64,000 nucleotides of DNA. It comes from Pararhodobacter sp. (GTDB lineage: Bacteria; Pseudomonadota; Alphaproteobacteria; Rhodobacterales; Rhodobacteraceae). The stretch lies in NCBI GenBank assembly GCA_020832545.1, contig JAFIEK010000002.1, forward strand, positions 62,001-126,000, read 5' to 3'. Below, piece by piece: positions 2,522 to 37,508 of the stretch. Within the stretch, counting starts at the first letter, position 1, and each line of letters begins with the position of its first letter. The position numbers and the translations under genes were made by a program. Below the pieces are notes generated by a model. That model had not been told where the DNA came from. It saw nothing but the letters and a program-made list of their open reading frames with translations, and did not search any database.

Positions 2522-4183
2522 TTAATTTGCCTGGCGGCGCAGGAAAGCCGGAATTTCAATCCGGTCTTCCGGCGCGCGCTGCGGCGGCTCGTCGTCATAG
2601 GAATGGATCGGCGGCTGCACGCGCGCGGCCTGCGCACCGCCTTCCCCGCCCGCGCCAGCCATACGGCTGATCAACGAACCAATCCCGAACCGTGCGCGCG
2701 GCTCTGGTTGCGGCGCTGGCTCCGGGGCGTGGTAATCGGCGGCAGCGGGGCGCTGGTGTGCATCGGGCTGCTTGGCCACTGCCGCCCGCAACCGCGCGAG
2801 CGTCTCTGGCGACGGGCCACCTGCCGAACGTGGGCGCGGGGCAACATAGCCACCGGCCTCGTCATGCCATTCCTGCGGTTGATGCTGCTGGGGGTGCGGG
2901 TGATGCGACTGTTCGTGCAAAACGGCATCAAGGTCGAACTCGTTCTGCGTCGGATGCTCATGACTGCGCGGCGCGTATTCCTGCTGCGGCTCCATCCGGG
3001 CGGCCGGGCGCTGGAACTCGGCTTGCCGCGACGGCTCGGGCTGGTGGTAAGCCGGTTGCTCGACATAGTCCTGGCGCGGCTCGAACACCGGTTCCTGCCA
3101 GGCTTCGCGCGCGGCGGCGGGCTGCTGCGGCTCGGGCTCGGCGGCGGTTTCGGGGGCGGGAGGGGCCAGCGGCTCGGCCATACGGCGGCGCGGCACCTCC
3201 ATCGAGGCAGCCCCGGCCTGCGCTTCGATCCCTGTGGCCACAACGGACACGCGGATCGCGCCCTCCATCTCCGGGTCCAGTGTTGAGCCGACAATGATAT
3301 TGGCCTCGGGGTCAACCTTCTCGCGGATCAGGTTGGCAGCCTCATCCAGCTCGAACAGCGTCAGATCGTGCCCGCCGGTGATGTTGATCAGCACGCCACG
3401 CGCGCCGTTGAGGCTGATCTCGTCCAGGAGCGGGTTGGCGATCGCCTTCTCGGCGGCCTGGCGGGCGCGATCCTCGCCCTGGGCCTCGCCGGTGCCCATC
3501 ATGGCCTTGCCCATTTCGTCCATCACGGCACGGACATCGGCGAAATCAAGGTTGATCATGCCGGGCCGTACCATCAGATCGGTCACACCCTTGACGCCCT
3601 GATAGAGCACGTCATCGGCCATGGCGAAGGCCTCGGTAAAGGTGGTCTTTTCGTTGGCAAGGCGGAACAGGTTCTGGTTGGGAATAATGATCAGCGTATC
3701 GACCACCTTTTGCAGCGCCTCGACCCCCTCTTCGGCCTGACGCATGCGCTTGGCACCCTCGAAGGCGAAAGGCTTGGTCACGACACCGACGGTCAGCACA
3801 CCCAGTTCGCGCGCGGCTTGCGCGATGATCGGGGCCGCGCCGGTGCCGGTTCCACCACCCATCCCCGCCGTGATAAAGCACATATGCGCCCCGGCCAGAT
3901 GGTCGATGATTTCCTCAAGCGTCTCTTCAGCCGCTGAGGCGCCGACCGAGGGCCGCGCGCCTGCGCCCAACCCTTCGGTGACCTTCACCCCCAACTGAAT
4001 GCGCGCCCGCGCCTTGGATTGCTGAAGGGCCTGCGCATCTGTGTTGGCAACGACGAACTCAACGCCTTCCAGCGCCTGTTCGATCATGTTGTTGACCGCG
4101 TTGCCACCTGCGCCGCCGACCCCGAAAACGGTGATCCGTGGCGTCAATTCCTTCGATTCCGTCGCGATGAAGTTCAATGCCAT
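2522..4183 (-). CDS. ftsZ: Cell division protein FtsZ
   Basis: FtsZ is the tubulin-like GTPase that forms the division ring. The N-terminal domain has [14 protein letters not shown] and the tubulin signature [10 protein letters not shown]. The C-terminal conserved peptide ends in [11 protein letters not shown]. At 553 aa it is long because a roughly 200-residue disordered linker rich in Gln, His, Pro and Ala (with segments such as [15 protein letters not shown]) separates the GTPase core from the C-terminal peptide. Long linkers are common in alphaproteobacteria. It follows ftsA after about 200 bp. Confidence 0.98.
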
Positions 4184-32627: not shown

Positions 32628-32928
32628 CTTCACTCAACCACTGATCGCGCAGCGGCGGGCAAGGGCAGAGGAAGCGCCTTGACAGGCGCTTGCAACGCGA
32701 TTGCTCTATCGCGTTTCGTGGCCCTGGAAAAAGCCGACGGTCAGGCGCTGACGGACTGCGTTTCAGCCCGCTGGTCAAGAATAAGGACGTCCGTCCTAGA
32801 AGCGGAATGTCCAAGGCGGTTTCGTTCCATGTCAACATTGCGCAGGGCGACATCATCGCCACCACCTCCCCCCCACTGATACGTCCGTACGCGCGCGCGC
32901 CGCCCCGGCGATGATGCGACCGTTGTGC
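32628..32928. other. Gene-free leader region before metY, with hairpin repeat
   Basis: No convincing gene is seen. The region holds a 7-bp hairpin AAGCGCC-TTGACA-GGCGCTT (32672-32691). Directly after it comes copy 2 of the 22-bp element GCAACGCGATTGCTCTATCGCG (32692-32713). The ORFs listed across it are short and have no recognisable features. Confidence 0.5.
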
Positions 32929-32979
32929 GGCGCGAGCCTTTGCCGTAGCTTCGCGCCAAATGGAAAAGGGAGAGGTTTC
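32929..32979 (+). promoter_or_regulatory. Possible SAM-II-like pseudoknot overlapping the metY ribosome-binding site
   Basis: A perfect 7-bp stem GGCGCGA/TCGCGCC encloses GCCTTTGCCGTAGCT and is followed by AAATGGAAAAGGGAGAGG and the start codon. The loop CCTTT could pair with AAAGG downstream to form a pseudoknot that masks the ribosome-binding site. The loop (TTTG-CCGTA) and 3' strand (AAATG...AAAAGGG) resemble the SAM-II (metA) aptamer known from alphaproteobacterial methionine genes. The match is by eye and partial. Confidence 0.4.
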
Positions 32980-34266
32980 ATGACCCGCAGCTATGGCTTT
33001 GACACGTTGCAAGTTCACGCTGGCGCCCGGCCCGACCCGGCGACCGGGGCGCGGCAGGTGCCGATTTATCAGACCACTGCCTATGTGTTCCGCGATGCCG
33101 ACCACGCGGCCGCGCTCTTCAATCTTCAGGAGGTGGGATATATCTATTCGCGCCTCACCAATCCCACCGTCGCCGCATTGCAGGAACGCGTGGCGACGCT
33201 GGAGGGCGGCGTGGGCGCGGTGTGCTGTTCCTCGGGCCATGGCGCGCAGATCATGGCGCTGTTTCCGCTGATGGAGCCGGGGCGCAATGTCGTGGCCTCG
33301 ACCCGGCTTTACGGTGGCACGGTCACGCAGTTCAGCCAGACGATCCGGCGTTTCGGCTGGTCTGCGAAATTCGCCGACACTGATGATCTGGCCGCCGTCG
33401 AGGCCGCGATTGACGCCGACACCCGGGCCATTTTCTGCGAATCTATCGCCAACCCCGGCGGCTATGTCACCGATATTCCGGCGCTGGCGAAGATCGCCGA
33501 CAAGCACGGCATTCCGCTGATCGTCGACAACACCTCGGCCACGCCGTATCTGTGCCGCCCCATTGAGCAGGGTGCCACGCTTGTGGTGCATTCGATGACA
33601 AAGTATCTGACCGGAAATGGCACCGTCACCGGCGGTGTGGTGGTCGATTCGGGTAATTTCGACTGGTCGGCCAGTGAAAAATTTCCCTCACTCTCTGCAC
33701 CTGAGCCCGCATATCACGGCCTGAAGTTCCATGAGACCTTCGGCGCACTGGCCTTCACCTTTCACGGCATCGCCATCGGTTTGCGCGATCTGGGCATGAC
33801 CTTGAACCCGCAAGCCGCGCATTACACGCTGATGGGGATTGAGACCCTTAGCCTGCGGATGCAACGCCATGTCGAGAACGCAGAGAAAATCGCCGCCTGG
33901 CTGGAGGCTGACCCGCGCATCGAGGCTGTGACCTATGCCGGCCTGCCATCCTCGCCCTGGCATGGGCGCGCGAAAACGCTCTACCCCAAGGGCGCGGGTG
34001 CGTTGTTCACCGTGGCGCTGAAAGGCGGGTATGAGGCCTGTATCAAACTGGTCGATTCGCTGGAGCTGTTCAGCCATGTCGCCAATCTGGGCGATACCCG
34101 CTCGCTGATCATCCATTCCGCCAGCACCACCCATCGCCAGCTTTCCGCCGAGCAGCAGAAAGCCGCCGGGGCTGCACCAAATGTGGTGCGGCTGTCGATT
34201 GGCATTGAGGATGCGGAGGACTTGATTGCCGATCTTGATCAGGCATTGAGCAAGGCAGGCACCTGA
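32980..34266 (+). CDS. metY: O-acetylhomoserine aminocarboxypropyltransferase (sulfhydrylase)
   Basis: This is a Cys/Met metabolism PLP enzyme making homocysteine from O-acetylhomoserine and sulfide. Features are TLQVHAGARPDPATGARQVP at the N-terminus, CSSGHGAQIMALFPLMEPG, and the PLP lysine in VVHSMTKYLTGNGT. The ATG at 32980 has GGGAGAGG closely upstream; length is 428 aa, typical of the longer MetY type. It is followed by a strong terminator. Confidence 0.95.
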   Translation: MTRSYGFDTLQVHAGARPDPATGARQVPIYQTTAYVFRDADHAAALFNLQEVGYIYSRLTNPTVAALQERVATLEGGVGAVCCSSGHGAQIMALFPLMEPGRNVVASTRLYGGTVTQFSQTIRRFGWSAKFADTDDLAAVEAAIDADTRAIFCESIANPGGYVTDIPALAKIADKHGIPLIVDNTSATPYLCRPIEQGATLVVHSMTKYLTGNGTVTGGVVVDSGNFDWSASEKFPSLSAPEPAYHGLKFHETFGALAFTFHGIAIGLRDLGMTLNPQAAHYTLMGIETLSLRMQRHVENAEKIAAWLEADPRIEAVTYAGLPSSPWHGRAKTLYPKGAGALFTVALKGGYEACIKLVDSLELFSHVANLGDTRSLIIHSASTTHRQLSAEQQKAAGAAPNVVRLSIGIEDAEDLIADLDQALSKAGT

Positions 34267-34290
34267 ACACGCACTGATCAACAAACCGTG

Positions 34291-34322
34291 GCCCGGCAGC
34301 ATCACTGCCGGGCTTTTTCTTT
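34291..34322 (+). terminator. Rho-independent terminator after metY
   Basis: A perfect 9-bp stem GCCCGGCAG/CTGCCGGGC with loop CATCA is followed by TTTTTCTTT. It lies 24 bp after the metY stop codon. Confidence 0.92.
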
Positions 34323-34406
34323 GCTTCGGCGGATTCCTGCTATAGGGATGGACCGACCTGAGTCTCGGACTCGTTGTTGATCAGTGGCTTGTGGTAAACG
34401 CGCCGT

Positions 34407-37400
34407 ATGAAACCGAATTATGCCCTTAAGCTGTCGCATGACGGCGTCGAGATCCTGCAGCGCGGCGCGTCAAGCTGGGAGCTGACAGGTTCAACCCGTT
34501 TCGATGTCCCCGATCTGGACGGCACGATGAAGCGGCTGCGCGATGCGGCTGAGAAGCGGGCGCCAGAAGGGCTTCGCTCAAAGCTGATCATGCCCGACAG
34601 CGAAGTCCGCTTTGCCACAGTTCTGGCCCCCGGCCCCACTGATGAGGCGCGTCGCCTGCAGATCGAGGCCGAGATCGAGGGGCTGACCCCCTATGCGCTG
34701 CCTGATCTGGCCTATGATTTCGTGATCGAGGGCGATTACGCGCTGGTTGCCCTTTGCGCGCGCGAGATTTTGGGTGAGGCCGAACAGTTTGCGCAGATGC
34801 ACGGGTTCAACCCGGTGTCCTTCGCCGCGATTGCGCCAGCCGGGGCCTTTATCGGTGAGCCGTTTTTTGGCGAAACATCTTGTGCACGCGCGTTTCTGCC
34901 GGCCGGAACCCGGGTGGAGCGTGAATCGCGCGCCACCCGCGCCGCTGCGCCGCCGAAGCCCGATGCCTCGTCGCGTCCTGCCAGCCCCGTTTCTGTGCCT
35001 TCGGCTACGCCCGCCATACCCGGCGCGCGCGCAGCAGCCTCAGTTGCCGCCGCCGCGCCCGAGGCCTTCTCGCGTGTCGGGAATCTGGTGCGCCGGATGG
35101 GCACCCGGGTGCGCCGCGAGCAGATCGAGGCTGAAACCCCGCGCGACAAGACCCCGCAGCCCGTAGCCTCAGCGAGATCAACCGAAGCACCTGCGCCAAC
35201 CAGCGGGCGTGCGCCCGTTCCACAGCAGACCGAGAAGCAAACGCCCAAACCGGCCCAGGCCGATGCTGGAAAGCCGGATACTGGAAAGCCAGAAACCGGG
35301 AAGCCGGAAACCGGGGCTGGCAAGGCCACGACGGTCACAGCGGCGTCATCCGCGCCACCGGAGGTGCAGAAACCACCGGAGTCGCAGAAACCGGAGCCGT
35401 CCGCCACGCCAGCTGGTTCAGAGGCCGGTGCCAAACAGGGCGCGGCCGAGAGCGGCCCGAAACCTGCTTCAGGCTCTTTTGCCTCACGCCGCAGCGCCAC
35501 CGCAGCTGCAACACCCGGCAAAAGCCCCACTCTGGTCGCCGATGGGCCGGGCGCACGGGTTGGCACGGCCAATCCCGGTGGCCGGATCGCGGTTTTACCC
35601 GCCGCGTCAGGTAAAACCGCGCCCAGCCGGGCCACACGCCTTTACCGCCGCAGCCGTCGCGCAGCCAAGGGTGTTCTGGCAAGTGTTGGTCTGTTTAGGC
35701 CCGGCGTGAAGAAGGCCGACAAGCAGCGTCCTGTCCAGCCCCCTGTGCGGCAAAAGACAGAGCCGGAGACCGGGCTAAAGCCCGTCGTCGCCGGGTCGCG
35801 CCCACCCACGGACGAGCGTGCCAAAGCCACCGAGGCGCAGGCACTGACCATATTCGGCGCGCGCAACATGCAAAGTGCCGAGACAGGCTTTGCCCGCCGG
35901 GGCCTGATGCTGACTGGCGGATTGATAATCTTGCTGGTGGCGGTGGCGATCTGGGCCATCTATTTCACTACGACTCCCGGGCGCGACGCCGAGGTGGCGA
36001 CCTTGCCACAGCAAGAGGTGACGCCGCTGCCGCAGATCGAACCGCCTGCGCGTCTGGCCGCACCAGCGACCGAGAGCGAAGACACTACACCCGAACCCGC
36101 ACCCGAGAGCGCCACCGCTCCGGCTGAGGAGGCAGTTGAGTCCGATGTGGCCGCTGCCGCGCCCAGCACAGACCCTGAAGCGTTGCTGGAAGCGCTGGTG
36201 CAGGAAGCCCTGACCGAGGCCATGCCGACCGATCGTCTGGGACAGGCAGAGCAAAGTGTGATCGAGCCCGGAGCCACTGAAGATGGCCCAGCCGAAAGCC
36301 CCACTGATCCCGCCCCCACGCTTGCCCAACCCGATGCCGAAGCCCCCACTGATCCTGGCTCGGAAACCGTGTTCGACAGCGCCGAGAGCCCGCAGATCAT
36401 ACAGGAAGCCGACAGCGAACCGGCCCAGCGGCTGGCCTTGCCGCCGATGCTGGAGCGCCCGGAACTGGCCGAGGTCGCCCCCGTGGCTCCCTCGCCACCG
36501 CCCCCGTTTGGTGTCGAGTTCGCGCTTGGCGCCGATGGTCTGGTTGAGGCCACGCCAGAGGGGGCGCTGACCCCTGCGGGCGTCACGGTCTTTGCCGGCC
36601 CGCCATCGGAAGTACCGCCCGCGCGCCCGGCGGGGCTTGCACCAGAGCCGCCCGCGCCTGTCGCGCCAGAGCCTGAACCTGAGGCCGCGCTGCCCGAACA
36701 GACCGAAGTCGCGGCGCCAGAAGAGGTTGTGCCAGAAGAGGTTGCGAGCGAGCAGGAAGCGGTGATCGCGGATGATACTCCGCGCGCAGACCCGGCGCTG
36801 GCGGGCTTTCGCCCCCAGCCGCGCAGCCCCCGCGTAGCCGAGTTGGCCGATCAGTTGGGAGAGACCGAGACCGAACCCGCCGCTGATCCTGCCGCCGAAC
36901 CCGCTTCCGAGGTGACGGAAACCGATGACGACAACGCCGCACTAGCCCCTCCGCCCGGAGGGGTTTTGCTTGACGGACTGCGCCCGCAGCGCCGCCCCAC
37001 CGATCTGGTACCCCCTGCCGAGACCGCAACGGCAGAAGCCGCCGACGACGATCTGGTGATCGACGAGGACACCGCACCAGAAGCGGTGGCAGTCTCGCTG
37101 CGCCCCTCGGTCCGGCCCGATGACATGAGCGCGCGCGCGCAAGCGGCACTCGCCGCCGCCGCCGCTCGGACCCAACAGGCTGCCGCACCACAACCCGCCG
37201 CCCAGCAACCTGCAGCGCAAGCCCCGGCCGCGACCGCGACGGCGGCGCCAAACATCCCAACTTCGGCCTCGGTGGCCGAGCAAGCCACGCAAGCCCGTGC
37301 GATCAACCTGCGCCGCGTCAACCTGATCGGTGTCTTCGGCACTCCGAACGACCGCCGGGCACTGGTGCGGCTGTCCAATGGCCAGGTCGTGCGGGTTCAG

Positions 37401-37508
37401 GTGGGCGACAATCTTGATGGTGGCCGGGTGTCCGCCATCGGCGATGATGAATTGCGCTACGTCAAGAACGGCCGCAATGAGATTTTGCGCATCGGCACGA
37501 GCGGCTGA
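34407..37508 (+). CDS. 1033-aa GspL/PilM-like - TM - PilP/GspC-like fusion protein
   Basis: I know no name for this gene. Residues 1-155 look like the cytoplasmic actin-like fold of GspL/PilM (ALKLSHDGVEIL, EAEIEGLTPYALPDLAYDF). Residues 160-490 are low-complexity Pro/Ala/Lys/Thr. A single transmembrane helix lies near 497-518 (RGLMLTGGLIILLVAVAIWAIY). Residues 520-955 are acidic and Pro/Ala/Glu-rich with short RP-x-x-RP motifs. The last 75 residues (RRVNLIGVFGTPNDRRALVR ... RVQVGDNLDGGRVSAIGDD) resemble the periplasmic PilP/GspC beta domain. No pilus or type II secretion genes are nearby. It stands alone after the metY terminator. Confidence 0.75.
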   Translation: MKPNYALKLSHDGVEILQRGASSWELTGSTRFDVPDLDGTMKRLRDAAEKRAPEGLRSKLIMPDSEVRFATVLAPGPTDEARRLQIEAEIEGLTPYALPDLAYDFVIEGDYALVALCAREILGEAEQFAQMHGFNPVSFAAIAPAGAFIGEPFFGETSCARAFLPAGTRVERESRATRAAAPPKPDASSRPASPVSVPSATPAIPGARAAASVAAAAPEAFSRVGNLVRRMGTRVRREQIEAETPRDKTPQPVASARSTEAPAPTSGRAPVPQQTEKQTPKPAQADAGKPDTGKPETGKPETGAGKATTVTAASSAPPEVQKPPESQKPEPSATPAGSEAGAKQGAAESGPKPASGSFASRRSATAAATPGKSPTLVADGPGARVGTANPGGRIAVLPAASGKTAPSRATRLYRRSRRAAKGVLASVGLFRPGVKKADKQRPVQPPVRQKTEPETGLKPVVAGSRPPTDERAKATEAQALTIFGARNMQSAETGFARRGLMLTGGLIILLVAVAIWAIYFTTTPGRDAEVATLPQQEVTPLPQIEPPARLAAPATESEDTTPEPAPESATAPAEEAVESDVAAAAPSTDPEALLEALVQEALTEAMPTDRLGQAEQSVIEPGATEDGPAESPTDPAPTLAQPDAEAPTDPGSETVFDSAESPQIIQEADSEPAQRLALPPMLERPELAEVAPVAPSPPPPFGVEFALGADGLVEATPEGALTPAGVTVFAGPPSEVPPARPAGLAPEPPAPVAPEPEPEAALPEQTEVAAPEEVVPEEVASEQEAVIADDTPRADPALAGFRPQPRSPRVAELADQLGETETEPAADPAAEPASEVTETDDDNAALAPPPGGVLLDGLRPQRRPTDLVPPAETATAEAADDDLVIDEDTAPEAVAVSLRPSVRPDDMSARAQAALAAAAARTQQAAAPQPAAQQPAAQAPAATATAAPNIPTSASVAEQATQARAINLRRVNLIGVFGTPNDRRALVRLSNGQVVRVQVGDNLDGGRVSAIGDDELRYVKNGRNEILRIGTSG

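Follow-up and report, generated by a model that had tools for sequence, protein, structure and literature searches.

The window analysed here, a 64,000-nucleotide stretch of contig JAFIEK010000002.1 (positions 62,001 to 126,000 of the forward strand) from the Pararhodobacter sp. assembly GCA_020832545.1, carries on its forward strand, at 34407-37508, an open reading frame that starts with ATG and has a product of 1033 aa, a long protein of the inner membrane that resembles, at either end, a part of a protein-secretion machine. The same conserved MKPxFALxLS opens the window protein and its orthologues, which argues that the ATG start is right, and among 98 full-length orthologues the chain measures between 463 and 1209 aa. 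Single-sequence Pfam and NCBIfam scans of the window protein gave sub-threshold PilP/GspC matches at the C-terminus only. The open reading frame and both terminal domains are confirmed as real, and we found no description of this fusion in the literature on PilP, GspC and GspL in Rhodobacter, Rhodobacteraceae or Alphaproteobacteria. The features of the locus are the following:

32911..34266, + strand: metY-like O-acetylhomoserine aminocarboxypropyltransferase, the conserved upstream neighbour
34290..34314, + strand: terminator-like hairpin (10-pair stem and T tract) in the gap that separates metY from the fusion gene
34407..37508, + strand: complete gene for the 1033-aa GspL-like/GspC-HR-like fusion, an open reading frame with orthologues across the family
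34407..34877, + strand: half actin-like (GspL/PilM-type) cytoplasmic domain, residues 1-157
34878..35903, + strand: cytoplasmic disordered linker rich in Ala, Pro, Lys and Arg, residues 158-499
35472..35492, + strand: F-x-S-R-R motif GSFASRR in the cytoplasmic linker, residues 356-362
35844..35864, + strand: juxtamembrane motif LTIFGAR, residues 480-486 (family form [MLI]T[VIM]FG[AM]R)
35904..35960, + strand: single transmembrane (TM) helix, residues 500-518 (hydropathy maximum, mean KD 2.65)
35961..37298, + strand: acidic, Pro-rich periplasmic linker, residues 519-964
36978..37007, + strand: RPxxRP motif LRPQRRPTDL, residues 858-867
37098..37127, + strand: RPxxRP motif LRPSVRPDDM, residues 898-907
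37299..37505, + strand: homology region (HR) domain of GspC/PilP type, residues 965-1033

The fusion gene sits in a housekeeping neighbourhood. In most orthologous loci metY lies directly upstream; the hairpin found between the two genes in the window is weak on its own, as the scanned region contains three terminator-like sites against 3.1 expected. Downstream, relatives carry genes which, named by sequence reading, are hydroxyphenylpyruvate dioxygenase-like, AsnC, KefB-like, CobT, CobS, CarD, ferredoxin and helicase genes, and in the window the next genes encode a short-chain dehydrogenase and an AbrB-type membrane protein. No secretion genes were found near the fusion gene in the loci read, where it never stood beside tad or gsp genes. 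A box like TCGGCrrA..CCTGCTrTA, which may be the gene's own promoter, lies within 34330-34406 of the window and, in many orthologues, some 50-70 nt ahead of the start codon. A cell-cycle promoter was also considered and rejected, GANTC and CtrA sites upstream of the gene being at background. Elsewhere in the window (2522-4183) an FtsZ of 553 aa is encoded, clearly above the usual length through its C-terminal region.

The AF2 model of residues 1-157, built from a 44-member alignment, has a mean pLDDT of 95.9. Its top Foldseek matches in the PDB are PulL (5tkw, 6e-8) and EpsL (1yf5, 9e-8), followed by V. vulnificus GspL (2.5e-7), PilM (1e-6) and FtsA (9e-5). This structure comparison was needed because a direct PDB profile search with the N-domain gave chance matches only; the window sequence alone has no Pfam match in this part, and members of the N-domain family match PilM_2 (best E 2.4e-4) and T2SSL in Pfam. 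By hhalign, residues 3-145 align with five alphaproteobacterial GspL proteins (97.9%, E 4e-13). The domain ends at about residue 157 and its TM-scores, normalised to the length of PilM, are just 0.27-0.33, so it corresponds to half of the actin-like fold. As the alphaproteobacterial GspL proteins have a similarly short cytoplasmic domain, with the TM helix directly after it, the half fold is inherited and not newly truncated. The domain is of the alphaproteobacterial GspL type, in which nothing points to an ATPase, and as half a fold it probably has no ATPase activity. The initial annotation had proposed a GspL/PilM-like N-terminal end, which the Foldseek matches to PulL, EpsL and PilM and the hhalign match to GspL bear out; the actin-like domain that it described is present, but as half of the fold and of the alphaproteobacterial GspL type.

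The C-terminal domain was modelled by AF2 as a six-strand sandwich with a confident core and a poor preceding segment, and a conserved short helix, SASVAEQAT (953-961), lies ahead of it. In Foldseek, P. aeruginosa PilP ranks first (9e-4), ahead of the PilP chain in 3jc8, a model of the type IVa pilus machine (1.9e-3), and of the GspC-HR of ETEC bound to GspD (3.7e-3); hhalign aligns the domain to alphaproteobacterial GspC (98.8%, E 5e-17). NCBIfam pilP_fam matches at 6.6e-7, and profile matches in the PDB are LspC (0.005) and PilP (0.01); the Pfam PilP match (E 3e-4), seen in 42 of 43 family members, is below the cut-off, the domain alone scoring 21.1 bits and the whole protein 15.9 against a gathering score of 25.6. 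The PilP/GspC-like C-terminal end was therefore correctly recognised in the initial annotation, as was the fusion of both ends in one 1033-aa chain containing a TM helix. In the ETEC complex, GspC-HR binds GspD chiefly through its first three strands (PMC3169554). In the fusion family, strands b1 (NLIGVYG) and b2 (RRALVR) are the best conserved, with mean consensus frequencies of 0.88 and 0.87, the third strand reaching 0.63. Since b1-b2 are part of the GspD-docking face in the T2SS, this pattern suggests that a protein-docking edge of the HR domain has been kept. Free-standing HR-domain proteins (88-115 aa) were also observed in some relatives, at L076:9843-10100, L077:9721-9984, L078:9881-10216 and L079:9803-10066, where purF lies on one side and a gene for a short-chain dehydrogenase on the other; they have no evident signal peptide or TM helix; they look like a soluble paralogue of the C-terminal domain of the fusion. 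Furthermore, alphaproteobacterial genomes of 0.9 Mb (L102, L113) encode a secreted-looking coiled-coil protein with an HR-like domain at its end.

The two domains are connected through the only hydrophobic segment of the chain (500-518), for which the positive-inside rule predicts an N-in/C-out topology with the basic flank cytoplasmic. In the 98 full-length orthologues the cytoplasmic linker varies between 0 and 595 aa (median 252) and is followed by one hydrophobic helix; in the divergent orthologues of L053, L054 and L055 it is almost absent, which recalls the GspL layout. The periplasmic linker has a median of 339 aa and is net negative in 97% of the same orthologues, and in the window protein the net charge of this linker is -65, in agreement with the single TM helix and long acidic linker first described. 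To judge from their motifs, these linkers are not featureless. On the cytoplasmic side, an F.S.R pattern occurs in the linkers of 79/98 orthologues (1.3 in shuffles) and FG.R in 76/98 (1.0 in shuffles), the fuller [MLI]T[VIM]FG[AM]R form ('MTVFGAR'-type) preceding the TM helix in 67/98. The periplasmic linkers of 94/98 orthologues contain 215 copies of RPxxRP, compared with 2.4 in shuffles, and a YAxTGIW motif was found in 54/98 orthologues.

The fusion is a near-universal single-copy core gene of Rhodobacteraceae. Searches started from the window sequence detected the N-domain in 135 and the C-domain in 146 of 150 genera of the family, and the C-domain in 132 of its 133 high-quality genomes. 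Profiles recover N-domains missed by the single query in G001, G095 and G102, and the survey across Rhodobacterales that the initial annotation had suggested found the N-domain by profile in 121 of 121 high-quality genomes from the order sample, which span 58 genera of a single family. In a class sample of 337 genomes, strong N-domain matches occur in this family only; the weaker ones, among those read, are GspL-type proteins. Beyond the family the C-domain matches GspC for the most part, along with some other proteins that bear an HR domain. The fusion has exceptions, since G059 has the two domains in separate neighbouring open reading frames (L060:9614-10887) and G049 (L066) a chain divided into two of 536 and 448 aa, which may reflect either a real split or a frameshift. 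Plasmid records gave one unannotated match, in a 1.6-Mb record of Pseudorhodobacter turbinis.

The closest relatives of both ends are the GspL and GspC of alphaproteobacterial T2SS, in whose clusters gspL-gspM-gspC(-gspD) lie on one strand (L211, L216) or gspL lies near gspC-gspD (L214). Because gspL, gspM and gspC stand in a row on one strand in these systems, we infer that the gene likely originated from a gspL/gspC fusion, the simplest route being the loss of the end of gspL, of gspM and of the start of gspC. The HR domain is too short, and its tree too poorly resolved, to place the fusion relative to T2SS GspC or to determine the timing or the source cluster.

The comparison with known systems shows both likenesses and differences. 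As in GspL/EpsL/PulL of the alphaproteobacterial type, an actin-like cytoplasmic domain of similar extent is followed by one TM helix; however, most orthologues have a long linker ahead of the TM helix, housekeeping genes replace the gspM and gspE cluster, GspE is not needed, and the acidic linker takes the place of the ferredoxin-like/PilN-like periplasmic domain, for which no Pfam or NCBIfam match was obtained in the 1033 aa at E<=1. With the GspC of T2SS the protein shares an anchor in the inner membrane, a linker through the periplasm and the HR domain, although here these are fused to a GspL-type domain and a secretin partner is undetectable in several carrier genomes. With respect to the PilM-PilN-PilP proteins of the type IVa pilus, the PilM-like and PilP-like folds are common to both, and the conserved peptide just ahead of the TM helix recalls the N-terminal motif of PilN. 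In contrast to them, the fusion is one chain with half the PilM fold and no adjoining pilus genes, lacks the complete actin-like fold with its ATP site, and has no lipoprotein signal as PilP does, its chain opening with the cytoplasmic domain. By prediction, the N-in TM helix, long Pro-rich/flexible periplasmic linker and small C-terminal domain also resemble those of the TonB, TolA and FtsN tethers, but the terminal folds are different (no TonB_C, TolA_C or SPOR domain was matched in Pfam, and the HR fold occupies that end) and the fusion possesses a folded cytoplasmic domain.

This FtsN-like topology, the presence of FtsA among the Foldseek matches and the status of core gene would suit a divisome or polarity protein working like FtsN, in which a cytoplasmic actin-like contact would be joined through a TM helix and a periplasmic linker to an end that binds the envelope. 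We regard this as unlikely, given that the FtsA matches are weaker than those to GspL, that the SPOR domain is absent, that no link to the dcw cluster is conserved in the loci read and that GANTC and CtrA sites are not enriched upstream. Nor could the fusion be identified with RSP_1183, an uncharacterised protein that was co-precipitated with DalA, a lipoprotein of the divisome (PMC10470522); this identity found no support, as SecA (RSP_1169) is far from the gene wherever both share a contig in the tested genomes.

The initial annotation also described the protein as occurring without a secretion system, which holds for the locus; the genome, however, has a T2SS elsewhere (GspC-D-E-F at L082, with its own GspC) together with a second secretin and secretion ATPase on contig C86. 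That GspC (L082:7555-8262) continues beyond its HR domain into a repetitive tail that is very acidic and contains Trp (EEDGWEEEEGWGDDDGWGGDDGW...), and just upstream of the T2SS genes a tandem of three genes (L082:4963-6574) was recognised by eye as peptide-deformylase-like. The stronger, secretion-free version of the claim holds for several relatives that keep the protein although neither a secretin nor a secretion ATPase nor an N0 domain is detectable in them. A secretin is present in 134 of 150 family genomes, mostly as ~480-aa forms that are taken to be of Tad type, and many genomes of the family have no detectable T2SS-type secretin. In seven high-quality genomes that retain the fusion gene (G045, G056, G091, G095, G118, G126 and G149), neither a secretin, nor a T2SSE/TadA-type ATPase, nor a GspD-N0 domain was detected, absence meaning that the assemblies gave no match at E <= 0.001. 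The C-domain was seen in all seven and both domains in six of them, G091 showing the C-domain only. STN domains, searched for as alternative partners, were found in none of ten genomes. The fusion protein is thereby shown to be independent of detectable secretion parts, and these seven genomes are the main evidence that it has left a secretion role. An alignment protein of a Tad pilus or T2SS, joining the inner membrane to the N0 domain of the CpaC or GspD secretin, would account for the derivation of both domains from secretion platforms and for the conservation of strands b1-b2, and secretin binding is possible in the 134 genomes mentioned. Such membership is nevertheless contradicted by the carriers with no detectable secretin, ATPase or GspD-N0, and considering also that the T2SS of the window genome has its own GspC and that the gene was never beside tad or gsp genes, we find it improbable.

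A transmembrane sensor, whose HR domain would read a periplasmic state and whose half-actin domain and cytoplasmic motifs would relay it to a soluble protein, is a poor candidate as well: the bitopic layout and the conserved motifs on either side of the membrane agree with it, but a recognisable output or ligand domain is absent, and mechanical signalling across the membrane is unlikely because the linkers are flexible, hundreds of residues long and highly variable in length. That the gene is a decaying T2SS relic with no present function, as the many genomes lacking a detectable T2SS-type secretin might suggest, is hardly credible, being already contradicted by conservation (domain in open frames in 121/121 genomes, C-terminal identity often 55-70% between genera, conserved motifs).

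We therefore favor, with a probability of roughly 0.55, the reuse of a T2SS inner-membrane-platform fusion as a bitopic envelope-spanning tether encoded by a stand-alone core gene of Rhodobacteraceae. Since several carriers have no detectable secretion machine, the secretion parts have probably been reused for another envelope job. The cytoplasmic and TM part of gspL would have joined the HR domain of the near-adjacent gspC, and the fusion would then have been fixed in the family as a stand-alone, single-copy core gene, its product being a bitopic inner-membrane tether. Regarding the partners and function that we infer for it, the half-actin domain might dock a cytoplasmic partner or peptide, or else the FGAR motif next to the membrane in the same chain, in the way of PilM with the PilN peptide; the flexible acidic linker would span the periplasm, with the RPxxRP motifs as putative docking sites; and the HR domain could use beta-strand addition to hold a partner in the periplasm or outer membrane, as GspC does with GspD. 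Its role would thus be envelope organisation rather than secretion. The original idea of a cytoplasmic state linked to the cell envelope is compatible with this anatomy. A more ambitious version of the tether, which we put forward tentatively and expect to be wrong sooner than right, is that the whole PilM-PilN-PilP-like relay is contained in one polypeptide, where the FGAR peptide would close the half-actin groove and the HR domain would hold a non-secretin outer-membrane or cell-wall partner.

The reuse of T2SS parts outside secretion would be unusual, and in this case it is apparently fixed family-wide in the form of a single-copy core gene. Relatives that lack a secretin constitute natural test organisms, as the function of the protein there cannot be classical secretion, and the two orphan domains, together with the linker motifs, offer direct baits for unknown envelope partners in those Rhodobacteraceae that are in wide laboratory use. 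If the relay were to exist as outlined, it would represent a trans-envelope coupling device, specific to Rhodobacteraceae and part of their core, built from a repurposed secretion machine.
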